Source of the DNA: Actinophytocola xinjiangensis
Lineage (GTDB): Bacteria; Actinomycetota; Actinomycetes; Mycobacteriales; Pseudonocardiaceae
Direction: 5' to 3'
DNA: 64,000 nucleotides
Assembly: GCF_001921215.1 (NCBI RefSeq)
Contig: NZ_MSIF01000006.1
Location: 124,001 to 188,000 of the forward strand
Of this stretch, positions 15,244-56,218 are shown piece by piece. Each line of letters starts with the position of its first letter. Positions within the stretch are counted from its first letter, which is position 1. The position numbers and the translations under genes were made by a program. A model generated the notes under the pieces. It did no database searches. It was not told where the DNA came from and saw nothing but the letters and a program-made list of their open reading frames with translations.

Positions 15244-15828
15244 TCAGGGACTGACGAACACCTTTTCCGGGAGCACGTTCTCCTGGTCGAGAAGTTCGAG
15301 AATCCTGGATGACGGAGCCACCATCGCGCAGTATCCGTCGAGCCATTCCAGCGCCCTGGCCGTGTCCTCCGGGCGCGCCGAGATCACGCAGTCACTCGGG
15401 ACCCACACCTTGTAGTTGCGGAAGTAGGCGTCGGCCGCGGTCGTCTGCACGCAGATCTGCGTCTGCATTCCGGTGACGATCACCGTGTCGACCCCGATCT
15501 TCCGCAGTCGCTCGTGCAGGTCCGTCTCGTAGAAGCCGCTGTCCTTGTTCTTCTCCAGCACGATGTCGCCCTCGCCGAGGAACTCCGGCAGAATGGCGGC
15601 ACCCTCGGTGCCCTTCTGCACCGGGAGGACCCCGTTGTAGCGCTCGGCGACCGGGTCGTCCGGCGGGTTGATCATCTGCAGGTGCACGACCAGGTGACCG
15701 CGGGCGCGCATCGCACCGAGAAACTCGACGTACCCGGGCGTTGCCTTCTCGACCGCGGCCTTCCGCTCCTCGTTCTTGTTGACGAGATCGCTCTGGAGGT
15801 CGTTGGTGAGAACGGCGATTGTGCTCAT
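15244..15828 (-). CDS. Isochorismatase-like cysteine hydrolase
   Basis: The 194-residue protein has the Asp-Lys-Cys triad of the cysteine hydrolase (isochorismatase-like) superfamily: Asp in LTNDLQSDLV, Lys in VLEKNKDSGFY, and nucleophile Cys in GMQTQICVQTTAADA. Members include nicotinamidases, N-carbamoyl-amino-acid amidases and biuret hydrolases. The ATG at 15828 has AAAGGAG seven bases upstream. It opens the operon with the GGCT-like, GS-like and A-T genes, 88 bp downstream of a candidate cluster operator. Amide or carbamoyl hydrolysis would fit the neighbouring HypE/HypF carbamoyl chemistry, but the substrate is not indicated. Confidence 0.85.
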   Translation of the reverse strand: MSTIAVLTNDLQSDLVNKNEERKAAVEKATPGYVEFLGAMRARGHLVVHLQMINPPDDPVAERYNGVLPVQKGTEGAAILPEFLGEGDIVLEKNKDSGFYETDLHERLRKIGVDTVIVTGMQTQICVQTTAADAYFRNYKVWVPSDCVISARPEDTARALEWLDGYCAMVAPSSRILELLDQENVLPEKVFVSP

Positions 15829-18900: not shown

Positions 18901-20354
18901 TCGGTCACCTCGTCCCCGTGGACGACCGCCAGCGCGTCCGGCCGTTCCCGCGCCCAGCGCGTGTGGAACGCCGGCGTCCCAGGCTCCACGGGGTCTCCGG
19001 TGCCGGCCCGCCAGCGGGCCAGGATCTCCTGCCGCTCCGCCGCCGAGGCCAGCGGCACCCCGGACACCGGGAGACGCGGGTCCTCGGCCACCGCCTCGAG
19101 GACGAGCCGGAGGTGGTGCGCCAGGCCGGCGATGGTGTCCGCGTCGAACAGGTCGGTGCTGTACTCGATCCGGCCGGCGTAGTGGTCGGGCCCCGGCTCG
19201 AAGTCCAGGAGGAGGTCGGCCTTGGCCGTCGCGGTGTCGACCTCCATCGGTTCGACGACCAGGCCGGCCGCGCGCAGCGGTGCCCGCCCCGCGTTCTGCA
19301 GGGACAGCATCACCTGACGCCGCAACGTGTCCGTGCCGCGGTTGGCCTGCCGGCGCAGGATGTTGACCACGAGCCAGAAGGGCAGCTCCTGGTGGTCGAA
19401 CGCCTCGGCGCAGGTGGTCCGGACGCGGTCGAGCAGGTCCGCGAAGGTGGGGTCGCCGCCGGTGTCCACCCGGAGGAACACCGGGTTGACGAAGTAGCCG
19501 ATCAGTCCTTCCAGTTCCGGCCTGGTCCGCCCCGCGACGGGTGTCGTCACGGTGATGTCGTGCTGCCCCGTGCAGCGGGTCAGCAGCAGGTCGAGACCGG
19601 CCAGCAGGACCATGAACAGGGTGGCCCTACGCGCGCGGGCCAGCTGCTCCAACCGGTCGACGAGGTGGCTCGGCAGGGTGAAGCGGTGGGAGCCGCCGCG
19701 GCCGGTCGCGGCCTGGCGTGGTGACCGGTCGGTCGGCAGTTCCAGCGGCACGGCCCCCGCCAGCCGGTCGCTCCAGTAGCCGCTCAACGAGTGCAGAGCG
19801 GGACCCTGCAACAGGTTCCGCTGCCACGCCGCGAAGTCCGCGTACTGGATGGGCAGCTCCGGCAGGTCCGGCGCCTGGCCGGCGGACAGAGCGGCGTAGG
19901 CCGCGGTGAGCTCGAGCAGCAGGACCGTCGACGACACGGCGTCGGTGATGATGTGGTGCATCACCAGCACGGCGATGTGCTCGGTCTGGTCGAGCCGCAG
20001 CAGGCGCATCCGCAGCAGCGGGCCCCGCTCGAGGTCGAAGGGCGCGGTCGCCTCGGCGCGGACGATGTCGGAGACGGTGTCCGGAGCGACCGGTGTCACG
20101 GACAGCGTCACCGGCACGGGCGGCTGGATGACCTGGACCAGGTCATCCTCGTGGAGCTGGAAGACGCTGCGCAGCACCTCGTGCCGCTCGACCAGCAGCG
20201 CCAGCGCCCGCTCGACGAGGTCGACCCGCAACGGTCCCCGCAGCCGCACGACGACCGGGATGTTGTACGTGGGTTGGTCGGGGTGCAGCTGGTGGTGCAG
20301 CCAGATGCTGTGCTGGGCGAAGGAGCTGTCGACCACGACCGCCTGGTCTGTCAT
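15942..20354 (-). CDS. NRPS protein C-A(degenerate)-T-C
   Basis: The protein has 1470 residues. The first condensation domain (about 1-430) carries HHIITDA. The adenylation-like region (about 440-930) keeps the fold (LYEDEPGGAVALRHEP, LHRTGDRVRYRADGSLELVG) but has no A3 YTSGTTG-PKG loop (VLVPTTRARLAG stands there), no A5 YGPTE, and no A10 Lys motif, so it should be inactive. It contains a local duplication, PDEVAQ-HS-PDEVAQ. A carrier domain DNFFDLGGQSLAAVRV follows, and then a second condensation domain with canonical HHLIGDG. The carrier must be charged in trans. The ATG at 20354 overlaps the stop of the oxidase gene (ATGA). The last stop is just downstream of operator 2. Confidence 0.88.
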   Translation of the reverse strand: MTDQAVVVDSSFAQHSIWLHHQLHPDQPTYNIPVVVRLRGPLRVDLVERALALLVERHEVLRSVFQLHEDDLVQVIQPPVPVTLSVTPVAPDTVSDIVRAEATAPFDLERGPLLRMRLLRLDQTEHIAVLVMHHIITDAVSSTVLLLELTAAYAALSAGQAPDLPELPIQYADFAAWQRNLLQGPALHSLSGYWSDRLAGAVPLELPTDRSPRQAATGRGGSHRFTLPSHLVDRLEQLARARRATLFMVLLAGLDLLLTRCTGQHDITVTTPVAGRTRPELEGLIGYFVNPVFLRVDTGGDPTFADLLDRVRTTCAEAFDHQELPFWLVVNILRRQANRGTDTLRRQVMLSLQNAGRAPLRAAGLVVEPMEVDTATAKADLLLDFEPGPDHYAGRIEYSTDLFDADTIAGLAHHLRLVLEAVAEDPRLPVSGVPLASAAERQEILARWRAGTGDPVEPGTPAFHTRWARERPDALAVVHGDEVTDYASLAERVADRTAQLRAHGLRRGSTAVLLLRPATELVVTLLAVIEAGGMFLVLDPAQPIARVREAVDAANPALVVGEPDDTRLADLGIPILGTHPAAPRPPDEVAQHSPDEVAQLRHTPVGAGRHVLVPTTRARLAGDAAATAQALRLRTKDRCLAAVHGPEVLSGDILAVLAAGATLVLAAADGAWSWADVAETGATHVLSARPMPPSHSPDGHPLVPTHLREVVLSSDPVLSAADTHWWRSWPGRLVRLHRFAGTGAVAVGPVDLDHDPASARRSSGRPSSGRRWYVLDRDLRPLPGGVVGELYEDEPGGAVALRHEPRLTAATLVPNPYGDRPGSRLHRTGDRVRYRADGSLELVGRVDRLLDLAWRRVDPEEVELALLALDGVAGCTVTPAAGTSRLVASVLPVPGTEVDVPAIHEELRRRLPPHLVPEIVVRDEETPAGGTLGNAGWVDRLVSEPYVAPRTPFEERIARIWTELLDVSVVGVHDNFFDLGGQSLAAVRVATRLREAFGVEVAVAGDLYADFTVAAVAKLVAERVAANLDTRRAGPVEPGHPLVVGPRESGRTRFRAAPAQDGVWARLTPEAPPPLVLSGVRVRGALDVERLERAFASVAARHETLRSTHREETGGELVQVISPDARIPFTVRGADPDDYPKIVREEVDRGFDLENEVPARIVVLRFAEDDHAVLVVLHHLIGDGQTVEILARDTWACYVGREAMLPELPVRFAEFARWHREVLEGPRGAEQIRYWVDRLAGATPGTIPSDLTPSTGSWSPAAMLETPIPPHTFHAVVRLAAHHRVTLYLVGLTALSAVLARATGDREICLRAPVSYRDDSRVQDLVADFSNDVVIRLDLSGEPTFADLLGQVEEVTASGFAHRELPPHLLEPHLPDPGLLSRLSGIQFTTEREMTPAFAVDDLSVSTYAPMFPYAYRPLRIRLRYGGDRPKCLWNYQQDLFSRERIERLATDFVDILAELTTDLSHRVVP

Positions 20355-21448
20355 CCGGACCCCCTGGTTACCGCCGGCACGCCGAACCGGGCCGGTCCGA
20401 ACGTCTCGAACCGTGCCGGCGGGACGGGCTCCACCAGCGCCCGGACCACCAGGTCGGCGGTCAGCGGGGTGAGCAGGATCCCGTTCTGGTGGTGGCCGGT
20501 GGCGACGACGACCCGCGGCTGCCCGGGGAGCGGGCCCAGGATCGGGGCGCTGTCCGGTGTCGCGGGCCGGTGCCGGACGCACACCTCGGTCAGCTCGTAG
20601 TCGGTCAGCTCAGGCACCAGCGCGGTCGCGGCGCCCAGCAGCTCCAGCACGGCACCCGCGGTCGCCAGGTGGTCGGTCCGCTCCTCCATGGTGGCGCCGA
20701 CGACCACCTCCCCGTCGAGCCTGGGCACCACGTAGACCGCGCGCCCGTCGGTGTACCCGCGGACCACGTGCCGCAGGCCCGGTGCCTCCCGGCCCGGGGA
20801 ACGCAGCCGTAGGACCTGCCCCTTGACCGGGCGAACCGGTAGGCCGGTCAGCGCGGCCGAGCCACAGCCGGCAGCGACCACCACCCGCGCGGCCGGCAGG
20901 TCCGCCAGGTCGGTCACCCGGGTGTGCTCGACGACCACGCCGGCGGACCGGCAGGCGGCACGCAACGCGACGACCATCCGTCGGGGGTTCACCTGCCGGT
21001 CGCCGGAGGAGTACACGCCGCCGTGCGGCCGGGGCGCCAGCGACGGCTCACGCGCACGCAGCTCGGCGGCGGTCTGCTGGCGTGCCGGCAGCCCCAGGCC
21101 GGTCTGGTGGTCGCGCAGCCGCAGCACCTCGGCCCGATCGCCGGCGGTGAGCGCCACGACCAGGGTCCCTTCGGCGCGGTAGCCGATGTCCAGCCCGGTG
21201 GCGGCCTCCAGTTCGGCGGCGAAGGCCGGCCAGGACGCGGCGGAGTCCACCAGCAGGCCGGTCAGCTCCGGTTCGCCGACGGTCTCCTCGGACACCGGCG
21301 CCAGGATGCCGGCCGCGGCGTACCAGGCCCCCGAGTCGTCCGGTTCCGGGTCGTACATCGTCACCGCCAGGCCGCGCCGGGCCGCCCGCCAGGCGACCGC
21401 CAGGCCGATCGGCCCCGCCCCGACCACCGCGAGGTCAGACACGGCCAA
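20351..21448 (-). CDS. ThiO-like FAD-dependent amino-acid oxidase
   Basis: The 365-residue flavoprotein is of the DAO family, closest in layout to glycine oxidase ThiO: N-terminal dinucleotide fold DLAVVGAGPIGLAVAWRAARR, AAGILAPVSE near residue 45, GDRQVNPRRMVVALRAAC, KGQVLRLRSPG, and the C-terminal FAD/substrate block PILGPLPGQPRVVVATGHHQNGI. It would oxidise glycine or a small amino acid to an imine. The start is probably TTG at 21448, which has GGGAG about 10 bases upstream; a GTG six bases on is possible. It overlaps the preceding gene and is coupled to the NRPS gene. A precursor or tailoring role is inferred from position. Confidence 0.85.
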   Translation of the reverse strand: MAVSDLAVVGAGPIGLAVAWRAARRGLAVTMYDPEPDDSGAWYAAAGILAPVSEETVGEPELTGLLVDSAASWPAFAAELEAATGLDIGYRAEGTLVVALTAGDRAEVLRLRDHQTGLGLPARQQTAAELRAREPSLAPRPHGGVYSSGDRQVNPRRMVVALRAACRSAGVVVEHTRVTDLADLPAARVVVAAGCGSAALTGLPVRPVKGQVLRLRSPGREAPGLRHVVRGYTDGRAVYVVPRLDGEVVVGATMEERTDHLATAGAVLELLGAATALVPELTDYELTEVCVRHRPATPDSAPILGPLPGQPRVVVATGHHQNGILLTPLTADLVVRALVEPVPPARFETFGPARFGVPAVTRGSG

Positions 21449-22568
21449 CGGAGCCGTTCTCCCGGTACCGCGCGAACCGGGTGCCCAGCTCCCGCGCGCG
21501 ATCCTCGGCTTCGGACAACGGCATGGTGGTGCAGTCGTAGCCGAGCTCGCGGCGCATCACGTCCATTGTGGACTCTTCGAACAGCACGGTCCCGTCGTCG
21601 CCGATCGCGCGGACTCCGTCCTCGACCTGGCCGCTCCGGTTGACGTCCACGGCCTCCTGCTCGGTCATGCCGGAAGGGAGCGCCAGTCGGACCGGCCCCG
21701 ACCCGACCGCGACCGGGTAGCCGCCGGGCAGACCGAGCGGGCCGGGCGCGTGCACCACGGCCTCGCGCTGCTCCAGCAACGGGACCAGCACGCTCATGGC
21801 CGACGCCGCGGTCATGGCCTGGCCGGCCATACCGCCCGTACGGCGGTACTCGGTGGTGAGCGGCTTCAGCAGCCGGGACAGCCCGATGTCCGGCAGGGCG
21901 TCCCGACCCTCGGCCAGGATCGCGATCCGCAGCTGGGTCGGGCTGATGTCGGTCGTCCGCGAGAGCCGGTGGCTGACGTAGTGGTGAGTGACCAGCCGGA
22001 CGTCCACGTCCGCCGGGTCGGTGCCCAGGATCGTGCCCGCCGAGTGGCGAAGCGCCGGAACGTTGTTCGCGACGTTCCCGATCCCGACGTGCGGCGCGAG
22101 CCCGGCGGTGGCCAGCACCGGGTGCACCACGTCGGGGTACGCGGCGTTCACCACGACCGCCTGGGACCCGGCCGCCCGGACGGCCCGCATCGCCTTGTGC
22201 ACCGGTACCAGGTGCATGGGCAGCCAGGGACCGAAGTTCGCGGCGTAGAGCCGCTGGAACCGCTCGGCCGGCAGCGTCGTGATCACCCACCACGACTGCA
22301 GGCTGGCGGCGAGGAACACCACGTCCGGCGCGAACTCGGCGATCACCTCGGCGGTCCTGGCGACGTCGTCGAGGTCGGTCAGCGCGTAGTCGACCCGGCT
22401 TCGGCATCCCTGTTGCAGGGCGCTGAAGCGGATCAGGTTGACGTCTCGCTGCAACGCGTCCTCGGTGCGACCGACGAGACGGACCTCCCAGCGCCGGTCG
22501 CGGTGCGCGAGCTCGCCGCACACGCGCCGGCCGAGGTCGCCCGCTCCGATGATCATGATCTTCCGCAT
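21435..22568 (-). CDS. NAD(P)-dependent Rossmann dehydrogenase-like protein
   Basis: The 377-residue protein opens with a Rossmann motif MRKIMIIGAGDLGRRVCGEL and continues LVGRTEDALQRDVN, resembling the malate/lactate dehydrogenase-type or saccharopine dehydrogenase-type fold (VNAAYPDVVHPVLATAGL, then HVGIGNVANNVPALR). I do not recognise a characterised biosynthetic member. The ATG at 22568 has GAGGAGGGG directly upstream. It lies between the HAD phosphatase and ThiO-like genes in a tight minus-strand operon, so it probably reduces or oxidises a precursor amino acid or keto acid of the peptide. Confidence 0.65.
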   Translation of the reverse strand: MRKIMIIGAGDLGRRVCGELAHRDRRWEVRLVGRTEDALQRDVNLIRFSALQQGCRSRVDYALTDLDDVARTAEVIAEFAPDVVFLAASLQSWWVITTLPAERFQRLYAANFGPWLPMHLVPVHKAMRAVRAAGSQAVVVNAAYPDVVHPVLATAGLAPHVGIGNVANNVPALRHSAGTILGTDPADVDVRLVTHHYVSHRLSRTTDISPTQLRIAILAEGRDALPDIGLSRLLKPLTTEYRRTGGMAGQAMTAASAMSVLVPLLEQREAVVHAPGPLGLPGGYPVAVGSGPVRLALPSGMTEQEAVDVNRSGQVEDGVRAIGDDGTVLFEESTMDVMRRELGYDCTTMPLSEAEDRARELGTRFARYRENGSVGRV

Positions 22569-22616: not shown

Positions 22617-23270
22617 TCAGATCAGGCTGGGCAGCTCCGCCATGTGGGCGAAGGTCACGACGCCGTCGCTGTGCGCCGCGACCGCCCGGCCGTTCGTGAA
22701 CTGCAGAACCCGCATTCCGGCGCGCACACCGGCCCGTACCCCGACCGCGCTGTCCTCGATGACCGTGCACCCCGACGGCAGCACCTGGTGGTCGGCCGCG
22801 GCGGACAGGAACAGGCCGGGATCGGGCTTCCAGACGTTCGCGTCGTAGGCCGAGGACAGGCGGTCCTCGAAGTAGTCGAGCAGCCCGCTCGCCCGGAGGC
22901 GGCGCTCGATCAGGTCACGTGGGCTGTTGGAGGCGACGCACTTGGTCACCGTGATGCGCCGCAGGGCCTCCTCGACACCGTCCACCGGGTCGATCCGCGG
23001 GCCGAGGATCCGCTCGCACTCGGTGCGCACGAACTCGACCGCGTCCGCCGGGGCGGGGCGGTCGGAGAGGGTCTCCAGCAGTTCGATGCAGGTGGCGAGC
23101 CGCTTGCCGGAGAACAGCTCCCCCGCCTCCTCGTCGCCGAGCAGCAGACCCATCCGCCGGCCCAGCCGGGCCAGCGCGACGTCCTCGGCGTACTGCGTGT
23201 CGACCAGCACGCCGTCGAGGTCGAACACCACCAGGCGTACCGGAGCTTCGTGTTCCGCGTCGCCCGACAT
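22617..23270 (-). CDS. HAD-superfamily phosphatase-like hydrolase
   Basis: The 217-residue protein has all four HAD motifs: VVFDLDGVLVDT (nucleophile Asp and acid Asp, motif I), SNSPRDL (motif II), KPDPGLFLSAA with its Lys (motif III) and VIEDSAVGVRAGVRAGM (motif IV). The helical cap after motif I is of beta-phosphoglucomutase/phosphoglycolate phosphatase type. The ATG at 23270 has GAGGAG about six bases upstream. It is preceded by a perfect copy of the cluster operator 63 bp away. It would dephosphorylate a small phosphorylated metabolite, possibly a cluster precursor. Confidence 0.85.
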   Translation of the reverse strand: MSGDAEHEAPVRLVVFDLDGVLVDTQYAEDVALARLGRRMGLLLGDEEAGELFSGKRLATCIELLETLSDRPAPADAVEFVRTECERILGPRIDPVDGVEEALRRITVTKCVASNSPRDLIERRLRASGLLDYFEDRLSSAYDANVWKPDPGLFLSAAADHQVLPSGCTVIEDSAVGVRAGVRAGMRVLQFTNGRAVAAHSDGVVTFAHMAELPSLI

Positions 23271-23353: not shown

Positions 23354-23950
23354 TCAGCGGTCGAGCGCGTTGCCGAGAATTCCGTCGGCGAGCCCGTCGC
23401 GGAGGGCTCTTGCGGGAGAGCTGGCCGGCTTTCGGTCGGCCTGGTCCCGGAAACAGGCCAGGAACTCCTTCGCGATGCCCGCCCGGGGCAGCAGGTCCAG
23501 CACGCCGGCCTTGAACCCGGCGGAGAAGTCGTCCATGTACCGGCCGGAGATGTCCATGCTGGTGGACCGCTCCAGCAGGAACCCCTCCGGATGCACGTCG
23601 ACGTCGACCACGTCCCAGGTGTGGCTGAGCACGACGTCGACCAGTTGGGCACGCCTGGCTTCCGGCCAGCCCGCTCCGGCGGAGAACACGTAGGCCACGT
23701 GGCCGCTCACGTCGTCGAACCCGAGGGCGTGGCTGTCGAACTCGGTCACCAGTCCGATGTCGTGCAGCAGGGCTCCGACGTACAACAGCTCGGGGTCGTA
23801 GGGCACGCCTTCGCGTGAACCGTGGGCCGCGGCCCACAGGTAGGAACGGAGGCAGTGGTTGAGCAGCGCCACAGAGCAGTACTTCTCGGCGACCTCCCGG
23901 GCACCGGCGCAGGCCGGTGTCCGGGGAAACGCGGGCAGCTCGGGCTCCAT
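23354..23950 (-). CDS. HD-domain protein, cyanamide-hydratase-like
   Basis: The 198-residue metal-dependent HD protein has AEKYCSVALLNHCLRSYLWA (about residues 21-40, first His ligand), then LLYVGALLHDIGLVTEF, which carries the HD pair, and LSHTWDVVDVDVHPEG with the later His/Asp region. The NH-SLRSY-LHDIGL spacing is that of the cyanamide hydratase/Ddi2 and related HD hydrolases. The ATG at 23950 follows the PLP-enzyme stop by about 20 bp. In context with HypE/HypF, hydration or processing of a cyano group is an attractive idea, but HD proteins also include oxygenases and phosphohydrolases, so the activity is open. Confidence 0.7.
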   Translation of the reverse strand: MEPELPAFPRTPACAGAREVAEKYCSVALLNHCLRSYLWAAAHGSREGVPYDPELLYVGALLHDIGLVTEFDSHALGFDDVSGHVAYVFSAGAGWPEARRAQLVDVVLSHTWDVVDVDVHPEGFLLERSTSMDISGRYMDDFSAGFKAGVLDLLPRAGIAKEFLACFRDQADRKPASSPARALRDGLADGILGNALDR

Positions 23951-23969: not shown

Positions 23970-25322
23970 TCATTCGTTCCGGATGGACGCCACGCTGAGC
24001 TCGGCCGGCACCTCACCACCCCGGCGGGACAGCGCGGCGGCGCACAGCGCCAGCGCCCGGCGCACCAGCGGCGACCGCGGGTCGGCCGCCTCGCCGTACC
24101 GGGCACGCCGGGGCAGCCGGGCCACCCGGGCGGCGAGTGTCTCCGGCGGCTCGGTCGCCAGTACCGCGGCGGTGAAGACGTCGGCGAGCTCGTCGAGCTC
24201 GGGCCCGGCCAGTCCGCGGTAGGTGGGCTCGTTGAGCCCGATGCGGACCGCTTGGCCCGCGACCCGGGGCAGACCGCCCATGAAGTTGACCCGGAGTCCG
24301 GCCCGGAAGAGGCGGTCGCTGGCCACTCGGGGCGCGACGCCGTCCGCGTCGGTGTCCAGCCACAGCTGGTGCCCGGCGGAGTAACCGCGGTCCGCGGCCA
24401 TCACGGTGAGGCCGCGCTCGGTCAGCAGCGCGCCGAACCGGCGGGTGTTGTCCACGACGGCACGCGCGTACTCGGCACCGAACCGGCGGAACTCCAGCAG
24501 CGCGATGCCGAGGCTGATCGTCGCGGCGAAGTGGTGGCTGCTGATCAGGTACTCCTGGGTCTCCTCGACCTGTTCGGCGACCCGCGGGTCACGGGTCAGG
24601 AAGACGCCCTTCTGCGGGCCGGGGAAGGTCTTGTGCGTGGAGCCGCCGAAGCTGTCCGCGCCGCAGTCGAGGGGGTTGTCGAACACGCCGCCCAGGACGA
24701 GTCCGAGCCACTGGCTGGTGTCGATGTGCACGCGGGTACCGGGCGAGGCCCGCCGCACCGTCTCGACCAGACTCGCCACATCGACGGGGAACAGGCAGTG
24801 GGACTGGTCCACGTAGACGAGCGCGGGCCGCACCGCGGCCAACCGCTCACGGGCGTGCTCGAGGTCGAGCCCGTGCGGATCGGGGCCGCCAAGCTCGTGG
24901 ACCCGCAGGCCCAACCGGGTCGCGAGCCGCGCGGTCGCGTAGTGGCCGCCGACGTCCGGGGACAGCGTCATGACGTCCGAGCCGGGTGGTCCGCCGAGCG
25001 AGGCCAGCACCAGCGTCATCGTGCCCAGCCCGCTCAACGGTCGCACGGACACCCGACCGGCCCTGCCCAGCTCGGCCAGCAACGGCACGGTCAGGTCCGT
25101 CTCCAGCTCGCGCAGGTTCTGTCCGCCGCGGAAGTGCCAGCTCGCCGGGTCGCCACCCTCGTTGAAGAAGTACCGGTGGTACACGTCGAGCAGCAACGGC
25201 AGCTTGGCGATGCCCGACATCGCGGCTTCCGAGGGCACCATGCTCAGTGCCCGGTCCGCGCTCCGCTCGTGGTCCTCCAGGAGGCGCAGCACATCCGTCA
25301 GCTCGAGCACGGGTTCCTCCAT
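23970..25322 (-). CDS. SHMT-family PLP-dependent enzyme
   Basis: The 450-residue protein is a fold-type I PLP enzyme of the serine hydroxymethyltransferase group. The PLP lysine lies in GGSTHKTFPGPQKGVFLT (about residue 225), and HIDTSQWLGLVLGG holds the ring-stacking/Asp region. It is atypical: the N-terminus VPSEAAMS-GIAKLPLLLD replaces the usual SENxxS block, and the folate pocket is not evident. It may be a transaldolase or aldolase (fluorothreonine transaldolase and alpha-methylserine enzymes share the family) that makes a beta-hydroxy amino acid. Start and HypF stop share one base (TGATG), so the two genes are coupled. Confidence 0.8.
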   Translation of the reverse strand: MEEPVLELTDVLRLLEDHERSADRALSMVPSEAAMSGIAKLPLLLDVYHRYFFNEGGDPASWHFRGGQNLRELETDLTVPLLAELGRAGRVSVRPLSGLGTMTLVLASLGGPPGSDVMTLSPDVGGHYATARLATRLGLRVHELGGPDPHGLDLEHARERLAAVRPALVYVDQSHCLFPVDVASLVETVRRASPGTRVHIDTSQWLGLVLGGVFDNPLDCGADSFGGSTHKTFPGPQKGVFLTRDPRVAEQVEETQEYLISSHHFAATISLGIALLEFRRFGAEYARAVVDNTRRFGALLTERGLTVMAADRGYSAGHQLWLDTDADGVAPRVASDRLFRAGLRVNFMGGLPRVAGQAVRIGLNEPTYRGLAGPELDELADVFTAAVLATEPPETLAARVARLPRRARYGEAADPRSPLVRRALALCAAALSRRGGEVPAELSVASIRNE

Positions 25323-27673
25323 CAGTCGGTCCTCGGTCCGTTCTTCTCGCTTCCCCGCTCGGCCCCGATCCGGGAGCTGGCCACGGTGACCTGGCCGAGC
25401 GAGATGCCGCCGTCGTTGCAGGGCACCAACCGGTGGCCGTACGCGGCGAGCCCGGCGCGGCGCAGCTCAACCAGGCAGTTGACGGCGAGGAACTCGTTGA
25501 GGAACACCCCACCCGAGAGCACGACCTGATCGGTGCGGTGCACCCGCGACAGTGCGGTGCACCGCCGTACCACCATGTCCACGACGGCCGTGTGGAACCG
25601 GCGGCTGATCTCGGCGAGGTCGACGCCGGCGGCCAGGTCCTCGGCGACCCGCCGGATCACCGGCCGGGGATCGACCCGCGTGCCGTCCTGGCCGGTCAGC
25701 TCACCGAAGGGGTATCCCTCGCCGAGGGTGAGGTCGCGCTCCAGCAGGCCCTCGAGCTCGATCGGGCCCTGCGCCTCGTACTCGGCGAGCGAGCAGATCC
25801 CGAGCAGTGCTGCCACGGCGTCGAACAGCCGGCCCATGCTCGACGCGAGCGGCGCGTTGATCCGCCGGTGGAACATGACGCCGAACACGTGCCGTTCCCG
25901 CCGCGCCAGCCGCCCCAGCACCGGGAAGGCCGCGGTCACCGCGTCGTCGTCGCCCAGCGCGTCCAGGGCGAAGGCGAAGCCGGACCGGACGGGTTCGCGC
26001 ACCGCTCGGTCGCCACCCAGCAGCGGGGTCGGGCGCAGCCACGAGACGCGGTCGACCGCGGTGACGTCGCCGACCAGGAACTCGCCGCCCCAGACCGTCC
26101 CGTCCACGCCGTAGCCGGCGCCGTCGAACACGACGCCAAGAGTCGGACCGGACAGCCGGTTCTCGGCGATGCAGGACGCCATGTGCGCGTGGTGGTGCTG
26201 GACGGGGTACACCCGTTCCGCCGGCGTGGCGGCGGAGAACCGCGTGGTGCGGAAGTCCGGGTGCAGGTCGCAGGCGACGTAGCGGGGCCGCAACTCGTAC
26301 AGCCCGGTCAGGTGGGTCGCGGTCTGTCCGTGCGAGTCGGCGGTCTGGTGGTTCTTGAGGTCGCCGATGTGCTGGCTGAGGTAGACCGCCGTGCCGTCGG
26401 CGAGCGCGATCGTCGTCTTCAGCTCCGCACCGAACGCCACGACCGGTTCCTGCTCCTCGGCGACCCGGACCGGGTACGGCGCGTATCCACGGGAGCGGCG
26501 CAGAAAGATGGTCAACGGCTCGGCGAGGTCCGGGTGCTCGGCGCAGAGCACGACGGAGTCGTCGACGCGGACCTCGATGTCCCGGTCGTGGTGCAGCACG
26601 AGGTCGGCGACCTCGAACAGGTCGGTGAGCGCCTCCAGGTCGCGGTAGACGATCGGCTGGCCGGAGATGTTGGCGCTCGTCATCACGAGGACGTCCAGCC
26701 CGGGGCGGTCCAGCAGCAGGTGGTGCAGGGGGGAACAGGGCAGCATCACGCCGAGCTTGGGGTTGCGCGGTGCGACCGTCTCTGGCAGCGCCCCGCGCCT
26801 CTTGGTCAGCAGTACGATCGGGCGGGCCGGCGAGGTGAGCAGCGTCGACTCGGCCCGGGTGGGATCGGCGACGGTGTCGACCGCGGTCAGGTCGGCGGCC
26901 ATCACGGCGAAGGGCTTCCAGTCGCGCTTCTTGCGCCGGCGCAGCCGGGCGACCGCCGCCTCGGCGCGCGCGTCGACGGCCAGGTGGTACCCGCCGACGC
27001 TCTTGACCGCGACGACGCGGCCGGCCGCGAGCGCGGCCACGGCCGCCGTCACGGCCTCGTCGCCGGTGGCCCGCGGTCCCTCGGGGCCGGACAGCGTCAC
27101 CTGTGGGCCGCAGTCGGGGCACGCGTTGGGCTGTGCGTGGTATCGGCGGTCCAGCGGGTCGTGGTACTCGGTGGAGCACCGCTCGCACATGGCGAACGAC
27201 GCCATCGAGGTCTCGGCACGGTCGTAGGGGAGCCCGCGGATGATCGAGTACCGCGGTCCGCAGTGGGTGCAGTTGGTGAACGGGTAGCGGTGGCGGCGGT
27301 CGGTGGGGTCGAACACCTCGCGCAGGCACGCGTCACAGATGTGCGCGTCCGGGGCAACGACCGTGTCGGTCCGGCCGGCGCGTTCGCTCTGCCGGATCTC
27401 GAAGCGTGCCGGCGCCTCGTCGACGGGCTCCCGGTGCTCGACGCGGGTCTCGTCGACGCGTGCCAGTGGCGGTGCCTGCTCGCGTAGCGCGGCGAGGAAG
27501 GTGCCCAGCGCCGGCGGCGGGCCATAGGCCGCGGCCTGGACTCCCAGCGTGTCGTTGAGCACCCAGCCGGTGATGCCGTGCGTCTCGGCGAGCTGGTGCA
27601 CGAACGGCCGGAAGCCGACGCCCTGCACCAGACCGTGGACGCGGATCAGCCAGCGTTCGGACCGTACGGTCAT
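25322..27673 (-). CDS. hypF: HypF-type carbamoyltransferase
   Basis: The 783-residue protein has the full HypF architecture. It starts with an acylphosphatase domain (RVHGLVQGVGFRPFVHQLA, about residues 10-28). Two zinc-finger pairs with the canonical CxxC-x18-CxxC spacing follow (CDAC ... CTHC ... CERC ... CPDC, about residues 110-185). A YrdC-like domain comes next, with KRRGALPETVAPRNP, then a Kae1-like C-terminal domain with QHHHAHMASC, FDGAGYGVDGTVWGGEF and VVLSGGVFLNEF. HypF makes carbamoyl-AMP from carbamoyl phosphate and transfers the carbamoyl to the terminal Cys of HypE. The ATG at 27673 starts 10 bp after hypE. The nearest biosynthetic relative in concept is TobZ, but that lacks the acylphosphatase part. 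No hydrogenase gene is visible. Confidence 0.93.
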   Translation of the reverse strand: MTVRSERWLIRVHGLVQGVGFRPFVHQLAETHGITGWVLNDTLGVQAAAYGPPPALGTFLAALREQAPPLARVDETRVEHREPVDEAPARFEIRQSERAGRTDTVVAPDAHICDACLREVFDPTDRRHRYPFTNCTHCGPRYSIIRGLPYDRAETSMASFAMCERCSTEYHDPLDRRYHAQPNACPDCGPQVTLSGPEGPRATGDEAVTAAVAALAAGRVVAVKSVGGYHLAVDARAEAAVARLRRRKKRDWKPFAVMAADLTAVDTVADPTRAESTLLTSPARPIVLLTKRRGALPETVAPRNPKLGVMLPCSPLHHLLLDRPGLDVLVMTSANISGQPIVYRDLEALTDLFEVADLVLHHDRDIEVRVDDSVVLCAEHPDLAEPLTIFLRRSRGYAPYPVRVAEEQEPVVAFGAELKTTIALADGTAVYLSQHIGDLKNHQTADSHGQTATHLTGLYELRPRYVACDLHPDFRTTRFSAATPAERVYPVQHHHAHMASCIAENRLSGPTLGVVFDGAGYGVDGTVWGGEFLVGDVTAVDRVSWLRPTPLLGGDRAVREPVRSGFAFALDALGDDDAVTAAFPVLGRLARRERHVFGVMFHRRINAPLASSMGRLFDAVAALLGICSLAEYEAQGPIELEGLLERDLTLGEGYPFGELTGQDGTRVDPRPVIRRVAEDLAAGVDLAEISRRFHTAVVDMVVRRCTALSRVHRTDQVVLSGGVFLNEFLAVNCLVELRRAGLAAYGHRLVPCNDGGISLGQVTVASSRIGAERGSEKNGPRTD

Positions 27674-27683
27674 GTCGGGCCCG

Positions 27684-28709
27684 TCAGCACAGTCGGGGCA
27701 GTTCGGCGCCCTGGAGCTCGTCGAGGAGGTCGACGCGCCCGTCCGGCCTGGTGACACGCACCTCGCCACCCTCGCCCTCGACCATCGTCCCGACAATCAC
27801 CGCCTGGCGTCCGTAGGGGTGGCCGCGCAGGACCTCCAGCACGCCGTCGGCCGCGGCCTGCTGGACGAACAGGCACAGGCAGCCCTCGTTGGCGGCGTTC
27901 ATCGGGTTGATGCCGAGCATGTCGCACGCCATCCGGACCGCTCGCTCGATCGGCAGCGCCTCCTCGACCAGGTGGGGTGTCAGCCCGGTCGCCCGCGCGT
28001 ACTCGTGCATGACCGCGGTGAGCCCGCCCCGGGTGACGTCGCGGATGGAGTGCACCGCCTGGCCGAACGGCGACCGCGACACGTCGGCGATCAGCCCGTT
28101 CAGCGGCGCGCAGTCACTCAGGACGTCGCGTTCGAACCCGAGCCCTTCCCGCACCGACAGCAGGTGCACGGTGTGGTTGCCGATGGGTCCGGTGAGCAGG
28201 ATGCTGTCGCCGGCCCTCACGTGGGCCATGCGCAACGGCGGGCGCCGGAACACGCCGATGCCCGCCGTGTTGAGGTAGATCTGGTCGGCCTCGCCCGGCC
28301 GCACCACCTTGGTGTCGCCGGCGACGATCACCACGCCGGCCTCGCGTGCCGCCTCGCCGACCGACCGCAGGACGGTGGCGTACCTGGACAGCGGCAGTCC
28401 GGTCTCCAGGATGACGCCCAGTGTCAGGTACCGGGGCTCGGCGCCGAGTACCGCCAGGTCGTTGACCGTGCCGCAGACCGCCACCTTGCCGATGTCCCCG
28501 TTGCCGAACAACGGCGGGTCGACGACGAACGAGTCGGTCGTGATCGCCAGCTGTTCGCCGGCCGTCCGCACGATCGCGCTGTCCTCCATCTCGCCGACGT
28601 AGACGTCGCCGAGCAACTCGGCGGTGAGCTCGACCAGCTCCCGGCTCAGCCGCGCACCGGTGCCGTGGTCGAGGACGATCTCCTGGTCGGCGATGGTCGT
28701 GTTCAGCAT
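27684..28709 (-). CDS. hypE: HypE-type carbamoyl dehydratase
   Basis: The 341-residue protein has the PurM/AIRS-like HypE fold: DHGTGARLSRELVELTAELLG at the N-terminus, GDIGKVAVCGTVNDLAVLGA (about residue 70), GDTKVVRPGEADQIYLNTAGIG, RDVTRGGLTAVMHE and NEGCLCLFVQ. It ends in Pro-Arg-Leu-Cys, so the C-terminal Cys that is carbamoylated by HypF and then dehydrated to thiocyanate in the hydrogenase pathway is kept. That conservation argues for genuine cyano-forming chemistry. The ATG at 28709 lies inside the end of a short upstream frame (28703-28765). It is directly followed by hypF. HypC, HypD, HypA, HypB and hydrogenase subunits are absent from the window. Confidence 0.92.
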   Translation of the reverse strand: MLNTTIADQEIVLDHGTGARLSRELVELTAELLGDVYVGEMEDSAIVRTAGEQLAITTDSFVVDPPLFGNGDIGKVAVCGTVNDLAVLGAEPRYLTLGVILETGLPLSRYATVLRSVGEAAREAGVVIVAGDTKVVRPGEADQIYLNTAGIGVFRRPPLRMAHVRAGDSILLTGPIGNHTVHLLSVREGLGFERDVLSDCAPLNGLIADVSRSPFGQAVHSIRDVTRGGLTAVMHEYARATGLTPHLVEEALPIERAVRMACDMLGINPMNAANEGCLCLFVQQAAADGVLEVLRGHPYGRQAVIVGTMVEGEGGEVRVTRPDGRVDLLDELQGAELPRLC

Positions 28710-28866: not shown

Positions 28867-30195
28867 TCAGGTGTCGAAGGAGTCGACGACCAGCCGTCGG
28901 TGCCGGTGGACGAGCCGCTGGATGAGGACCACGACGACGAGCTGGGCGAGGCCGGACACGGCGAACGCGGTGGACACGCTGGTGTGGCCGGCCAGCACGC
29001 CACCGGCCAGGGCGCCGAGCGGGATGCCGCCCCACAGCACCACCCGGTTGGCGCCGAGCACCCGGCCGAGCAGCCCGTCCGGGATCATCGCCTGCCGCAA
29101 CGACATCGACAGCACGTTCCACATCGTCACGCCCACCGCGACGCCGAAGAACCACACGCCGGCCGCCCACAGGTTCGTGACGGTGCCGAGCAGGACGAAC
29201 ATCACCGGGGCGATCGCGACGGCGACCATGATCGCCCGCGGCCGGCCGAGGCGGGTGGTCAACGGCCCGACCGCGGCGGACCCCGCGAGGCCGCCGACAC
29301 CCATGGCGACGAACAGGACGCCGTAGAGCGACGGGGTGAGGTGCAGGGTGTCCAGGGCGTACAGCACGGTGAGCGAGGTGGCCATGGACATGAACCCCGC
29401 GATCAGTCCACTGAGGATGGTCAGACCGCGCAGCACGGGGTGGCGCCACAGCCAGCGCAGTCCCTCGCCGATGTCGGCGCGCAGGGTCGTCGGCTCGGTG
29501 CGCTCGGCCCGGAACCGGCCGGGGACGGCGAGCACGAGCATCGCGGCGACCGCGAACCCGATCGCCGTGCCGATGAACGGGGCGGCGCGGAACCAGCCGA
29601 AGAGCGCCGCGCCCACCGGTGGTCCGACGAAGCTCTGCCCGACGGTCTCCTCGACGGTCAGCCAGCTGTTGGCCCGGTCCAGGCCGCGGCGGTCGACGAC
29701 CTGGGGCAGGATGGCGCGGACCGCCGAGTCGTACACCACCTGGCACAGCCCGAGCGCGAACGCGGTGACGTACAGCACCAGGATGTTCCCCACACCGGCG
29801 ACGACGAGCAGGACGAGGGCACCGAGCAGGGCGGCCCGCATGATGTTCACGGTCGACATGGCCCGCCGACGGTCCAGCCGGTCCACCAGCGCCCCGCCCG
29901 GCAGGCCGAACAGCAGCCACGGCAGGAACGCGAACGCGGTGAGGCCGGAGATGAGCAGGGGGTCGTCGGTCAGCGACGCGGCGAGCAGGGGCAGCGAGAT
30001 CTTGGTGATTCCATCGGCACTGGTGGCCGTGGCGGACGCTGCGAACAGTTTCCAGAACGAGCGATCGAGCGCGGGCGCGGAATTGTCGGACGCCGTGGTA
30101 CGCCGAAACACAGTATTTCCACCTTCGGAAACGAAGCGTCGTTTCCGCTCAGGCGGCGGTCGGCCTCCTGCTGGTGCGGAAACGCATGACATCAA
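28867..30195 (-). CDS. MFS exporter (enterobactin/macrolide-exporter-like)
   Basis: The 442-residue membrane protein has about 12 hydrophobic segments and the MFS_3 (EntS-like) layout, including LPGGALVDRLDRRRAMSTVN, the motif-A-like loop between helices 2 and 3, and a second half starting LRADIGEGLRWLWRHPVLRG. It probably exports the peptide product. The start is drawn at 30195, but an internal GTG near the FRRTTASD segment would fit a shorter N-terminus. It is divergent from the C-A-T NRPS gene, sharing the intergenic region with candidate operator 5. Downstream lies hypE. Confidence 0.88.
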   Translation of the reverse strand: MMSCVSAPAGGRPPPERKRRFVSEGGNTVFRRTTASDNSAPALDRSFWKLFAASATATSADGITKISLPLLAASLTDDPLLISGLTAFAFLPWLLFGLPGGALVDRLDRRRAMSTVNIMRAALLGALVLLVVAGVGNILVLYVTAFALGLCQVVYDSAVRAILPQVVDRRGLDRANSWLTVEETVGQSFVGPPVGAALFGWFRAAPFIGTAIGFAVAAMLVLAVPGRFRAERTEPTTLRADIGEGLRWLWRHPVLRGLTILSGLIAGFMSMATSLTVLYALDTLHLTPSLYGVLFVAMGVGGLAGSAAVGPLTTRLGRPRAIMVAVAIAPVMFVLLGTVTNLWAAGVWFFGVAVGVTMWNVLSMSLRQAMIPDGLLGRVLGANRVVLWGGIPLGALAGGVLAGHTSVSTAFAVSGLAQLVVVVLIQRLVHRHRRLVVDSFDT

Positions 30196-30377: not shown

Positions 30378-33300
30378 ATGGCAGACGACGCGCCGGACGA
30401 GGCGACGGCGTTGCGGCGCGCGGTGGACGAGCTGTCCCCCGAGCGGCGCGCCCTGCTCAGCCTGCGGCTGGCCGGTAAGCGGGCGGCGGCCCGGGACCGG
30501 ATCCCGCCACGACCGCGCGAGGCCGGGGTCAACCGCTTCCCCGCGTCGCCGGGGCAGGAACGGCTCTACTACCGCCAGGAGCTGGCGCCGGACGCGGTCA
30601 CCTACCTGATGCCGTTCCAGGCCCGGATCACGGGCCGGCTCCGGGTCGACGCGTTGCGTACCGCCCTGACCGACGCGGTGGACCGGCACGAGGTGCTGCG
30701 CACCGGCTTCGAGATCACGCCCGAACTGGGCCTGACCCAGGTCGTGCGCCCCGCCGCGACGGTGCGGATCGACCTGCCGGTCGAGGAGATCCACGCCGAC
30801 GACGTGCCGGACCGGGTCGCCCGGCTGACGAGCCGGCCGTTCGACCTGGGCGCTCCCCCGCTGCTGCGGGCGGGGCTGTGGCGGCCGCGCGGGACCGGTG
30901 TGGCCGACGAATGGGTGTTCGCGCTGTGCGTGCACCACATCGTGGTCGACGGCTGGTCCATCGGTGTGCTGGTGAACGAGGTGATCGAGACCTATTCGGC
31001 GACCGTACGGGAGCACCCTCCCCGGCGGGCGCCGCTGCCGGTGCAGTACGGGGACTTCGCGCACTGGCAACGCGACAGGCTCACCGGTACGGCCGCCACC
31101 GAGCACCTCGCCCACTGGCGTGCCACGCTCGCCGGTGCCCGGCCGCTGACGTTGCCGACCGACCGACCGCGCCGGTCCGAGCGGACCTGCGGGTACGACT
31201 CGGTCGCGCTGCCGCTGTCGCCGGGGACGGTCACCCAGCTCGACACCCTGGCCCGCTCGGCCGAGGCGACCCCCTTCATGGTGCTGCTCGCGGCGTTCGC
31301 CGTGGTGCTGCGGCGCTGGTCGGGTCAGGACGACGTGCTGCTCGGCACCCCGGTCGCCGGGCGTGACCGGCCGGAGCTGGAGGAGCTGGTCGGGTTCTTC
31401 GTCAACACCGTCCCGCTGCGGCTGCGGACCGCCGGGGCGACGACGTTCCGCGAACTGATCGGGCTCGCCCGCGCCACCTGCCTGGACGCCTACGAACATC
31501 AGGAGGTGCCGTTCGAGCGGGTCATGCGGGAGGTCGGCGTCGAGCGCCGGGGTGGGACCGCCGGCCTGCTGACGGTGATGCTCGCTCTGGGCAACGTCCC
31601 GGCCGGTCGGGTGCGGCTGCCGGAGCTGGACGTCGAGGTCCGGGACCTGCCCACCGCGGGCACCGACTTCGACCTGACCGTCGAGCTCACGCCGGTGCCG
31701 GAGGGCGGTCTGTCCGGCTGGCTGGTCTACTCCCGTGACCTGTTCGACCGGGACACCGCCGAGCGGATCGCGGTGGCGCTGCACGAGGTGTTGGCCGCCG
31801 CGCTCGCCGACCCCGACACCGCCCCGCACGACCTGCCCGTCATGCCGGCAACCGACCGGGACACGGTGGTGCGCGGGTTCGGCGTGGCCTCCGAACCCGG
31901 TTGCCCGGTCCGGCCGCCGCTGGACTGGTTCACCGACCACGTGCGCGCCACGCCCCACGCCACCGCGGTCGTCGCCGGGTCGGACACCGTGAGCTTCGCC
32001 GAGCTGTCCGACCGGACCGACCGGCTCGCCCGGCGGCTGCGCCGGCTCGGTGCCGGGCCGGAGGACCGGGTGGCCGTGTGCCTGCCACGCGGTCTGGACC
32101 TGGTGGTGAGCCTGCTCGCGGTGCTGCGGGTCGGGGCGGTGTTCGTCCCGCTGGAGGTTGAGCATCCCGACGAGCGCCTCAGGTGGCTGGTCACCGACGC
32201 CGCACCGAAGCTGGTCCTGGCCGACCCAACGACCGCCGGCCGGCTCTCCGTGCCCGACTCGGTCCTGGTCCCGGTCATGCCCGACGAGCGTGACGGGGAG
32301 CACGGCCGGAACGACCTCGACGAGCCGCCGGCGCACCCGGACAACGCCGCCTACGTGCTCTACACGTCGGGATCGACCGGCCGGCCGAAGGGCGTCGTGA
32401 TCACCCGTCAGGCGCTGGCCAACCGGGTTCGCGGGATGTGCACGGTGTTCCGGATCGACCGGCGGGACGTCGTCCTGCACAAGACCCCGATGAGTTCGGA
32501 CACCGCCATGTGGGAGCTGCTGGTGTCGCTGTTCAGCGGTGGCCTGCTGGTGCTGGCCGACCCCGGCCGGCAGTCCGACCCCGGCCACGTCTTCGACCTG
32601 ATGACCCGCCACCGCGTGACGACCTGCTTCTTCGTGCCGTCTGCTCTGCGCCCGATGCTGGCGGCACCCGGGTTCGCTGAGGCGGCCCGCACCCTGCGGC
32701 TGATGGTCTGTGGTGGTGAGGAGCTGCCGGCAGCGCTGGGCGAGCAGCTGATCGAGGCGGCTCCACACGTCGGCCTGTACAACTCCTACGGGCCGACCGA
32801 GGCCACGATCAACGTCGCCGAGTACGAGGTCCGCTCCCCCGTGCCGGACCCGGTTCCCATCGGCGGCCCGGTTCCCGGCGCCGACCTGTACGTGCTCGAC
32901 GAGCTGCTGCGGCCGCAGCAAATCGGCGTACCGGGCGACCTGTACGCCGGCGGGGTCCAGGTCGCCCGCTGCTACCTCGACCGTCCCGGCCTGACCGCGC
33001 AAAGTTGTGTGCCGCACCCGTTCGCTCGTGGGGAGCGGCTGTACCGCACAGGTGACCGGGCCCGCTGGCGGGGTGACGGGGTGCTGGAGTTCCTCGGGCG
33101 GGCCGACCAACAGATCAAGATCCGGGGTTTCCGCGTCGAGCCGGGCGAGGTGGAGTCGGCGCTGCGGAGTCATCCGGAGGTCGCCGAAGCGGTGGTGGTG
33201 GCCAGGCCGCTGGCCCGGGACGATCTCGGACTGGTCGCCTATGTCACCGCGCGGGTGCCCGGGCCGCTGGGCGTCGACAGCCTGCGTGGCCACCTGACCC

Positions 33301-33758
33301 GGCTGCTGCCGGGGCCGATGGTGCCGGCCAGGTTCGTGCTGCTCGACGCGTTCCCCCTGACCGCGTACGGCAAGGTCGACCGGTCGAACCTGCCCGACGA
33401 CCCGGGGCTCACGCCGTCCGGCGCGACCCACGTGCCCCCGTCCGACGACCTGGAGTCGGTGCTCGCGGGGATCTGGGCGGGGGTTCTCGACATCGCCGAG
33501 ATCGGCGTCCGCGACGACTTCTTCGCCCTCGGCGGTCATTCCCTGCTCGCCACCGTGGTGGTGTCCCAGGTGCGGGAGCTGTTCCGGATGGACCTGCCGC
33601 TGCACTTCTTCGTCGAGGCCCCGACCGTGGCCGACCTCGCCGGCCTGGTCAGGGCCCAGGGGCGCCGCGACGGGGTGGACGTCGACCGGGTCGCCGAGCT
33701 GGTGCTCCGGGTGCGGCGGATGTCGCCCGCCGAGGCGGCGGAGCTGCTCGGCGACTGA
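30378..33758 (+). CDS. NRPS module C-A-T
   Basis: The 1126-residue protein is a complete elongation module. The condensation domain (about 50-490) has CVHHIVVDGWSIG. The adenylation domain (about 500-1010) has A3 YTSGSTGRPKG, A4 SSDTAMWELL (the usual FD is SD), A5 NSYGPTEATIN, A8 GRADQQIKIRGFRVEPGEVE and A10 YGKVDRSNL. A carrier domain follows with DDFFALGGHSLLATVVV, then a C-terminal tail LRRMSPAEAAELL. Pocket residues begin Asp-Thr..Trp with Phe at the next position; I cannot assign the substrate. The ATG has AGGAG about seven bases upstream. It is the only plus-strand NRPS gene apart from the T-C gene. Confidence 0.92.
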   Translation: MADDAPDEATALRRAVDELSPERRALLSLRLAGKRAAARDRIPPRPREAGVNRFPASPGQERLYYRQELAPDAVTYLMPFQARITGRLRVDALRTALTDAVDRHEVLRTGFEITPELGLTQVVRPAATVRIDLPVEEIHADDVPDRVARLTSRPFDLGAPPLLRAGLWRPRGTGVADEWVFALCVHHIVVDGWSIGVLVNEVIETYSATVREHPPRRAPLPVQYGDFAHWQRDRLTGTAATEHLAHWRATLAGARPLTLPTDRPRRSERTCGYDSVALPLSPGTVTQLDTLARSAEATPFMVLLAAFAVVLRRWSGQDDVLLGTPVAGRDRPELEELVGFFVNTVPLRLRTAGATTFRELIGLARATCLDAYEHQEVPFERVMREVGVERRGGTAGLLTVMLALGNVPAGRVRLPELDVEVRDLPTAGTDFDLTVELTPVPEGGLSGWLVYSRDLFDRDTAERIAVALHEVLAAALADPDTAPHDLPVMPATDRDTVVRGFGVASEPGCPVRPPLDWFTDHVRATPHATAVVAGSDTVSFAELSDRTDRLARRLRRLGAGPEDRVAVCLPRGLDLVVSLLAVLRVGAVFVPLEVEHPDERLRWLVTDAAPKLVLADPTTAGRLSVPDSVLVPVMPDERDGEHGRNDLDEPPAHPDNAAYVLYTSGSTGRPKGVVITRQALANRVRGMCTVFRIDRRDVVLHKTPMSSDTAMWELLVSLFSGGLLVLADPGRQSDPGHVFDLMTRHRVTTCFFVPSALRPMLAAPGFAEAARTLRLMVCGGEELPAALGEQLIEAAPHVGLYNSYGPTEATINVAEYEVRSPVPDPVPIGGPVPGADLYVLDELLRPQQIGVPGDLYAGGVQVARCYLDRPGLTAQSCVPHPFARGERLYRTGDRARWRGDGVLEFLGRADQQIKIRGFRVEPGEVESALRSHPEVAEAVVVARPLARDDLGLVAYVTARVPGPLGVDSLRGHLTRLLPGPMVPARFVLLDAFPLTAYGKVDRSNLPDDPGLTPSGATHVPPSDDLESVLAGIWAGVLDIAEIGVRDDFFALGGHSLLATVVVSQVRELFRMDLPLHFFVEAPTVADLAGLVRAQGRRDGVDVDRVAELVLRVRRMSPAEAAELLGD

Positions 33759-43447: not shown

Positions 43448-43515
43448 GGTCCACTCCTCGTTCGCGGGCTTCGCGCGTCTGGAGTGAATGTGTCGCATCG
43501 GCGGGTCCCTGTGAT

Positions 43516-56216: not shown

Positions 56217-56218
56217 GT

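Follow-up and report, generated by a model that had tools for sequence, protein, structure and literature searches.

In the maturation of [NiFe]-hydrogenases, the chemistry of HypE and HypF leads to a cyano-type group on a HypE cysteine (PMC12134894, available part of the article), and infrared data favour isothiocyanate over thiocyanate as the form held on HypE (PMC4506123, available part). The tail motif PRIC is said to be common to all HypE proteins, and its arginine has been proposed to contact HypD (2025 paper, PMC12130793, available part). In the literature that we consulted, partly in excerpt, cyanide synthesis by HypE-HypF is described only within hydrogenase maturation. Here, we analyzed a stretch of 64,000 nucleotides (the window) from Actinophytocola xinjiangensis (GCF_001921215.1, contig NZ_MSIF01000006.1, positions 124,001-188,000, forward strand), in which hypE and hypF lie among genes for nonribosomal peptide synthetases (NRPS); the coordinates below are window positions. 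We conclude that small organic molecules, not iron, are the probable acceptors of cyanide from this HypE-HypF pair. A first-pass annotation, made from the sequence alone, had been aware of no characterized pathway that uses both proteins in this way, and our literature search on HypE/HypF or hydrogenase maturation, which left most subscription journals and preprints outside its scope, found none.

An intact pair and the hydrogenase question

The gene hypF (25322-27673, minus strand) encodes the presumptive carbamoyltransferase from carbamoyl phosphate to HypE, and its product passes the NCBIfam equivalog model TIGR00143 with 718.7 bits against a curated cut-off of 466.1. A Pfam search of the window proteins found all of its domains intact, namely the acylphosphatase, two zf-HYPF stretches, the YrdC-type domain and both Kae1-like domains, and in translation both zinc fingers read CX2C-X18-CX2C. 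The adjacent hypE (27684-28709, minus strand), for a carbamoyl dehydratase and cyano carrier, scores 394.7 bits against a cut-off of 251.6 (TIGR02124), and its product ends in PRLC, thus keeping the C-terminal Cys. Aligned with the HypE structure 2z1e, with positions counted by hand, it also keeps residues matching Lys134 and Glu272, which we take to be catalytic residues with roles in dehydration. The first-pass description of a four-part HypF with canonical zinc-finger spacing and a HypE with its terminal Cys therefore holds, as does the placement of the pair within an NRPS cluster, given that the large genes around it carry condensation, AMP-binding and PP-binding domains.

Our own gene-caller prediction puts the likely start of HypE at the ATG at 28709 and that of HypF at the ATG at 27673, and the hypF stop codon shares one base with the ATG of the following gene (23970-25322, minus strand), which encodes a pyridoxal phosphate (PLP) enzyme of the serine hydroxymethyltransferase (SHMT) fold. 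The overlap had been noted before and stands, but the accompanying label "SHMT-like" does not: the closest family is fluorothreonine transaldolase, although at 202.7 bits the protein fails the curated cut-off of 650 for that type. The placement of hypE-hypF is not due to chance, as both genes are full-length and intact and their order is kept across tens of loci.

The genome carrying the window (9.5 Mb, 99.26% complete) gave no match to HypD, HypC or HypA (HypB and HypX were not searched), so that the previously noted absence of these three proteins around the pair extends to the whole genome. It contains one full HypF, plus a 24.9-bit match to the acylphosphatase region. The sole match to a hydrogenase large subunit is partial, covering 67 of 508 positions (L001, C23:541518-541718), and its frame reads RVSGDTT at the expected position of the first Ni-binding Cys motif, which we assume to be RxCGxC in a subunit of presumed group-4 type. 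The genome search found no hydrogenase in which the first Ni-binding motif is intact. As an observation in its own right, the group-4-hydrogenase-like subunit without its first Cys motif probably comes from a complex that we take to be energy-converting hydrogenase-related.

Set beside [NiFe]-hydrogenase maturation, the window thus has the catalytic domains of HypF and the C-terminal Cys and dehydratase fold of HypE, and lacks the PRIC tail, the HypC-HypD scaffold, HypA and a hydrogenase large subunit. The earlier proposal that the pair serves an NRPS pathway rather than a hydrogenase is supported on two counts. The genome holds no hydrogenase operon lacking its own hypE and hypF, only the partial match just described, and hypEF loss was not seen in related clusters: nine extended NRPS regions (a tenth, L088, was left out) all keep hypE and hypF, which is so by construction because these regions were found through HypF. 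It is almost certain that HypE and HypF operate in the window without a hydrogenase.

A third cassette member and a separate HypE clade

Three features escaped the first-pass annotation: a partner of the pair, which we call ISOCH, an HD-domain gene (23354-23950), and the spread of the cassette beyond NRPS clusters. ISOCH (15244-15828, minus strand) is an isochorismatase-fold cysteine hydrolase and, from its domain, fold and conserved neighborhood, a putative cyano (or carbamoyl) transferase. It has the PF00857 domain, a fold match to the isochorismatase family and a triad of Asp10, Lys93 and Cys126, of which the Cys is kept in all 60 full-length sequences. Its structure model has a predicted local distance difference test score (pLDDT) of 93.7, and a fold search with this model gave the best E-values for triuret and biuret hydrolases; by sequence, ISOCH is closest to 3eef, an N-carbamoylsarcosine-amidase-related protein. 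In the window it lies 9.5 kb downstream, within the same run of minus-strand genes.

Relatives were sampled as the best 80 of at least 582 loci from a scan of genome contigs. Among 123 loci, we defined as cassette loci the 67 whose HypE shares >50% identity; one of these is the window's own locus, L002, and six form three pairs in which HypE and HypF are identical, each pair seemingly a single genome present twice. Of the 67, 64 contain ISOCH, which adjoins hypE in 60 and is one gene off in four; with L002 and the three repeats set aside, the count is 61 of 63. The two exceptions among the latter are contig ends: L068 starts 495 bases before hypE, and L081 stops 74 bases after hypF, with 9 kb free of ISOCH on its other side. 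The order ISOCH-hypE-hypF on one strand occurs in 60 of the 64 loci (L075 has another order, and ISOCH is on the opposite strand in L102, L112 and L121), and in 17 of these 60 the gene predictions for ISOCH and hypE overlap.

The reverse test gave the same association. Across 297 genomes of the family to which the window strain belongs, ISOCH (E-value 1e-30) occurs at nine places in eight genomes, each time near a hypF match, at a distance of up to 2 kb in eight cases and 9.5 kb in the window. At two of the nine the nearby hypF is only 44-47% identical, and these two may belong with a form like that of S. clavuligerus. HypF itself (E-value 1e-60) is present in 126 of the 297 genomes, only seven of which, our strain included, have a copy of at least 59% identity; the rest have ≤50%. 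Class-wide, ISOCH was detected in two of 394 genomes, exactly the two with a HypE of at least 65% identity, and at the same threshold in none of the other 103 HypE-bearing genomes, one of which has a HypE at 50%. ISOCH is very probably a dedicated partner of HypE-HypF.

The HypE proteins that accompany ISOCH form a group of their own. One branch of the HypE tree, with support of 100/100, splits 67 cassette rows, counting the window sequence but not L002, from 23 hydrogenase rows, five of which fill less than half of the columns. At equal thresholds, 31-43 of 341 HypE columns but only 2-17 of 786 HypF columns are diagnostic of the clade, in comparisons of 63 distinct cassette rows with 23 HypE or 51 HypF hydrogenase rows. 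The tail reads PRLC in all 63 distinct cassette sequences, whereas it reads PRIC in 22 of 23 hydrogenase HypE proteins, the remaining one being truncated. The many diagnostic columns in HypE and few in HypF fit a retained carbamoylation step and a changed acceptor of the HypE tail; HypF, which transfers the carbamoyl group, would have been kept, and the carrier HypE, which meets the acceptor, would have been changed.

Of 55 cassette genomes, drawn from 53 loci and six family genomes after three loci and one further entry had been left out, just 21 have HypD and 34 lack it; counting the three repeated pairs once, all of them without HypD, gives 31 of 52. Both kinds of HypE coexist on plasmid pBPHY02 of P. 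phymatum, which carries a hydrogenase with hypABFCDE (HypE ending in PRIC) and, ~12 kb beyond hypA, diaminobutyrate aminotransferase and GNAT genes followed by ISOCH, HypE (ending in PRLC) and HypF.

Gene contexts, a proposed pathway and its rivals

Contexts were read from family scans of single representatives and from gene order. In the NRPS context (A), a transaldolase-like gene lies directly 3′ of hypF, and in each of the nine extended relatives it is followed by a gene of the C26 gamma-glutamyl-hydrolase type; a transaldolase-like PLP gene directly follows hypF in 11 loci besides the window. Context B has ATP-grasp ligases, a diaminobutyrate-decarboxylase-like enzyme and desaturase-like and methylaspartate-mutase genes; context C, diaminobutyrate aminotransferase, GNAT, M20 amidohydrolase and ATP-grasp; context D, in Nocardia, a HisC-like aminotransferase, UbiA, a thiamine diphosphate (ThDP) enzyme and a P450-like gene; and context E, of aminosugar type, an epimerase, a DegT aminotransferase, NUDIX and inositol-phosphatase. 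Context F consists of ISOCH-hypE-hypF-HAD, to which two enterobacterial plasmids add an MFS gene, and context G is a plasmid of S. clavuligerus with arginase-family and ATP-grasp genes. HypE-HypF pairs do occur in other NRPS clusters, as had been proposed for checking, but they are not confined to them: the cassette is widespread in other gene settings, and we rejected the idea that it is an NRPS-specific trait.

Two side observations concern these contexts. The two enterobacterial plasmids (L118 and L119) have a compact ISOCH-hypE-hypF-HAD-MFS arrangement with a LysR gene and no visible acceptor-making enzyme, the simplest system seen; with the Citrobacter cassette as query, no near match was found among E. 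coli genomes. In two contexts (L057, 6509-7246, and L121, 11260-11955), haem-oxygenase-like PF14518 and DUF3865 proteins, both below cut-off, lie near the cassette; such folds include N-oxidizing and fragmenting enzymes.

A PLP enzyme of one of five seed families accompanies the cassette in 40 of the 51 loci whose flanks extend 4.5 kb or more to each side. By tblastn, in loci of at least 20 kb from the contig scan, such an enzyme is found in 37 of 43 cassette loci versus six of 18 other hypF loci (Fisher 9e-5). Relatedness among the loci, the use of cassette loci as the source of the seeds and the Geomonas origin of five of the six control matches make this enrichment indicative only. The GNAT and M20 genes of context C and the gamma-glutamyl-type genes of context A look like amine protection. 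The window differs from its context A relatives in having no C26 gene; instead, a glutamine-synthetase-family ligase, possibly a gamma-glutamyl-amine ligase (13250-14635, minus strand; PF00120; sub-threshold scores of 229.9 bits for type III glutamate-ammonia ligase and 194.9 bits for gamma-glutamylputrescine synthetase), adjoins a possible gamma-glutamylcyclotransferase-like (GGACT/AIG2) protein (14632-15210, minus strand; PF06094, E 0.0091, below cut-off). It is possible that the deprotection step of a gamma-glutamyl-protected amine has been swapped in the window, replacing the C26 gene of all nine relatives.

The HD-domain protein encoded at 23354-23950 (minus strand; PF01966) is of the cyanamide-hydratase family, with 40.8 bits against TIGR03401; a homolog in an S. 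albicerus cluster reaches 64.4 bits. Its only sequence matches in the PDB, at E-values up to 0.01, are 6dk9, 6dkd and 6dka, titled DNA damage-inducible protein, of which 6DKA is Ddi2, with Zn ligands H55, H88 and D89 and a Thr, T157, where an Asp is usual (PMC8177086, available part). In our alignment, H32, H63, D64 and T130 of the HD protein correspond to these four residues (offset of 8 set by hand). Our genome has a single TIGR03401-like match, and 12 of 41 genomes searched have one, which makes a chance placement in the operon unlikely but possible. An N-cyano intermediate is a plausible, though somewhat doubtful, substrate of the HD protein. The ISOCH partner, with its triuret and biuret hydrolase fold matches, and the cyanamide-hydratase-family gene in the operon strengthen the original suggestion of a carbamoyl, cyano or thiocyanate group on the peptide or a precursor.

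We propose the following pathway. HypF would activate carbamoyl phosphate and carbamoylate the C-terminal Cys of HypE, and HypE with ATP would dehydrate the thiocarbamate to HypE-S-C≡N, as its conserved machinery suggests. The loaded carrier would meet ISOCH in place of HypCD, which the genome lacks. With its invariant active-site Cys, and relatives that handle carbamoyl groups, ISOCH might take over the cyano group or hold the HypE tail beside the substrate, and would pass the cyano group to an organic nucleophile, presumably an amine. Here, the acceptor would most likely be the amine of a beta-hydroxy amino acid from the transaldolase-like PLP enzyme. The N-cyano compound could persist as a cyanamide, undergo ring closure to give a cyclic guanidine or 2-aminooxazoline, or be turned into a urea through hydration by the HD protein, and the product would become a building block of the NRPS peptide. 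We regard the overall reading, in which HypEF make HypE-SCN and ISOCH replaces HypCD and hands the cyano group to an organic nucleophile, as moderately likely. Taken singly, it is likely that cyano, and not carbamoyl, is the group transferred, and the identification of the acceptor as an amine is evenly poised. More tentatively, HypE-HypF-ISOCH may be a general, mobile N-cyanation machine in which carbamoyl phosphate becomes an electrophilic cyano donor for amines, giving cyanamides and then cyclic guanidines, 2-aminooxazolines or ureas in many small-molecule pathways, an arginine-free route to guanidine-type groups.

Several observations weigh against this proposal. The window ISOCH lies 9.5 kb from hypF. 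Six Nocardia ISOCH proteins (L050, L058, L060, L065, L067 and L080) keep the Cys but have lost both Asp10 and Lys93, so that ISOCH activity may differ between lineages, and the top TM-scores of the ISOCH model belong to uncharacterized isochorismatase-family structures, 3hu5 and 3hb7, not to biuret hydrolases. No seed PLP family was found in 11 of the 51 loci (four with HAD genes, three with genes of the arginase family, two NRPS loci of Sorangium, and the loci L060 and L120). The HD protein scores below the cyanamide hydratase cut-off of 109.85, TIGR03401-like genes are not rare, as the 12 of 41 genomes show, the HD gene is in only two of the ten NRPS regions compared, the window included, and its fold model was poor (mean pLDDT 50.4) and was set aside. 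All counts over cassette loci also draw on loci that are related to each other, some of them present twice.

The same data bear on three other explanations. The trio might only carbamoylate, with ISOCH moving the carbamoyl group of the HypE thiocarbamate to an amine or hydroxyl to give a urea or carbamate, the cyano stage being skipped or incidental. The likeness of ISOCH to 3eef and to biuret and triuret hydrolases, all enzymes of carbamoyl compounds, speaks for this, as do GdmN and TobZ, HypF-related carbamoyltransferases known in natural product pathways; simple carbamoyltransferases, however, work without a HypE carrier, whereas every one of the 67 loci has HypE, the presence of which was a condition of their selection. 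The explanation is weakened further by the retention in HypE of the counterparts of 2z1e Lys134 and Glu272, and it leaves the cyanamide-hydratase-family gene unexplained; we consider it unlikely. Less probable again is a supply of small cyanide compounds, in which the trio would make free cyanide, cyanate, thiocyanate or cyanamide for export or for other enzymes, for instance toward a C-bound nitrile. The two enterobacterial plasmid operons and a Rhizobium plasmid, where the trio occurs with ABC and DMT transporters, would suit such a role, having no obvious acceptor-making enzyme, but the PLP enzyme in most loci and the NRPS, ATP-grasp and aminosugar-type contexts better fit a built-in group.

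It is extremely improbable that the pair is a remnant of [NiFe]-hydrogenase maturation, or an auxiliary to it, that was captured by an NRPS cluster. HypE and HypF do both pass the hydrogenase equivalog cut-offs, and the P. phymatum cassette lies near a hydrogenase operon; yet that plasmid has its separate hypABFCDE, the cassette HypE forms a distinct clade, most cassette genomes have no HypD, and our genome has no HypA, HypC, HypD or intact hydrogenase. On these grounds, a hydrogenase remnant was rejected.

Beyond the genes that carry the proposal, the minus-strand run between ISOCH and the HD gene encodes an NRPS with two condensation domains, one weak AMP-binding domain and a PP-binding domain (15942-20354), a ThiO-type flavin-dependent (FAD) amine/glycine oxidase (20351-21448; TIGR02352, 283.8 bits, above the cut-off of 250.8), a Rossmann-type, weakly saccharopine-dehydrogenase-like protein (21435-22568; PF03435, 21.6 bits, below cut-off) and a HAD-family phosphatase (22617-23270). 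Past ISOCH lie an NRPS of adenylation-thiolation (A-T) type (11488-13239, minus strand) and one of thiolation-condensation (T-C) type (9840-11504, plus strand). Upstream of hypE are an MFS transporter (28867-30111, minus strand; PF07690, PF05977), a C-A-T NRPS (30378-33758, plus strand) and then, all on the minus strand, a C-A NRPS (33772-36504), a serine hydroxymethyltransferase (36501-37877), two TauD-type oxygenases (37874-38854 and 38868-39836; PF02668), a C-A-T NRPS (39951-43145), an MbtH-like protein (43241-43498; PF03621), an AAA/LuxR-type regulator (43546-45963; PF13191, PF00196) and an NRPS with an N-terminal acyl-AMP ligase-like domain, which suggests a fatty-acyl starter (46353-50981). 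Read by eye on the translations, the A-domain codes of the window NRPS gave no assignable specificity. Also by eye, the region 54202-62473 encodes a CooC-like ATPase and a luciferase-like protein, then a metal-type substrate-binding protein, an ABC ATPase and a permease, and several of its proteins have LDxGHxD-like segments in common; one protein at 2254-4065 combines, in this order, a nucleoside-phosphorylase-like domain, a membrane segment and RCC1-like repeats.

Relation to known systems

If the proposal is correct, nature also uses the HypE-HypF cyano donor in organic synthesis, a set of orphan gene clusters would be explained, new natural products bearing nitrile, cyanamide, guanidine or urea groups would be predicted, and a tool for biocatalytic cyanation would be on offer. 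The cassette occurs in actinobacteria and proteobacteria and on plasmids.

The HypE-HypF of hydrogenase maturation, as in E. coli and Thermococcus, resembles the window pair in its full set of HypF domains, the HypE fold, the C-terminal Cys and the Lys134 and Glu272 matches; the window pair differs in a genome without HypC and HypD, the ISOCH partner, PRLC in place of PRIC, the 31-43 diagnostic HypE columns and its biosynthetic neighbors. Carbamoyltransferases of the TobZ/GdmN type carry out carbamoyl-AMP chemistry in YrdC/Kae1-like domains, as in HypF, and act directly on the product, whereas the window HypF is paired with a HypE and has, in addition, an acylphosphatase domain and zinc fingers. 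ISOCH shares its fold, its Asp-Lys-Cys residues and its sequence and structure matches with biuret and triuret hydrolases, RutB and N-carbamoylsarcosine amidase; unlike them, it accompanies HypE-HypF, and the six Nocardia proteins have the Cys without the Asp and Lys. The yeast cyanamide hydratase Ddi2, an HD-domain enzyme, has in its available description the same H, HD and Thr, the latter replacing the last Asp, as the window HD protein, whose similarity to it is low (28 bits) and which, below the family cut-off, has a putative activity only. What is known is the cyano-carrier chemistry; what is new is the ISOCH partner, the HypE clade and the biosynthetic setting.

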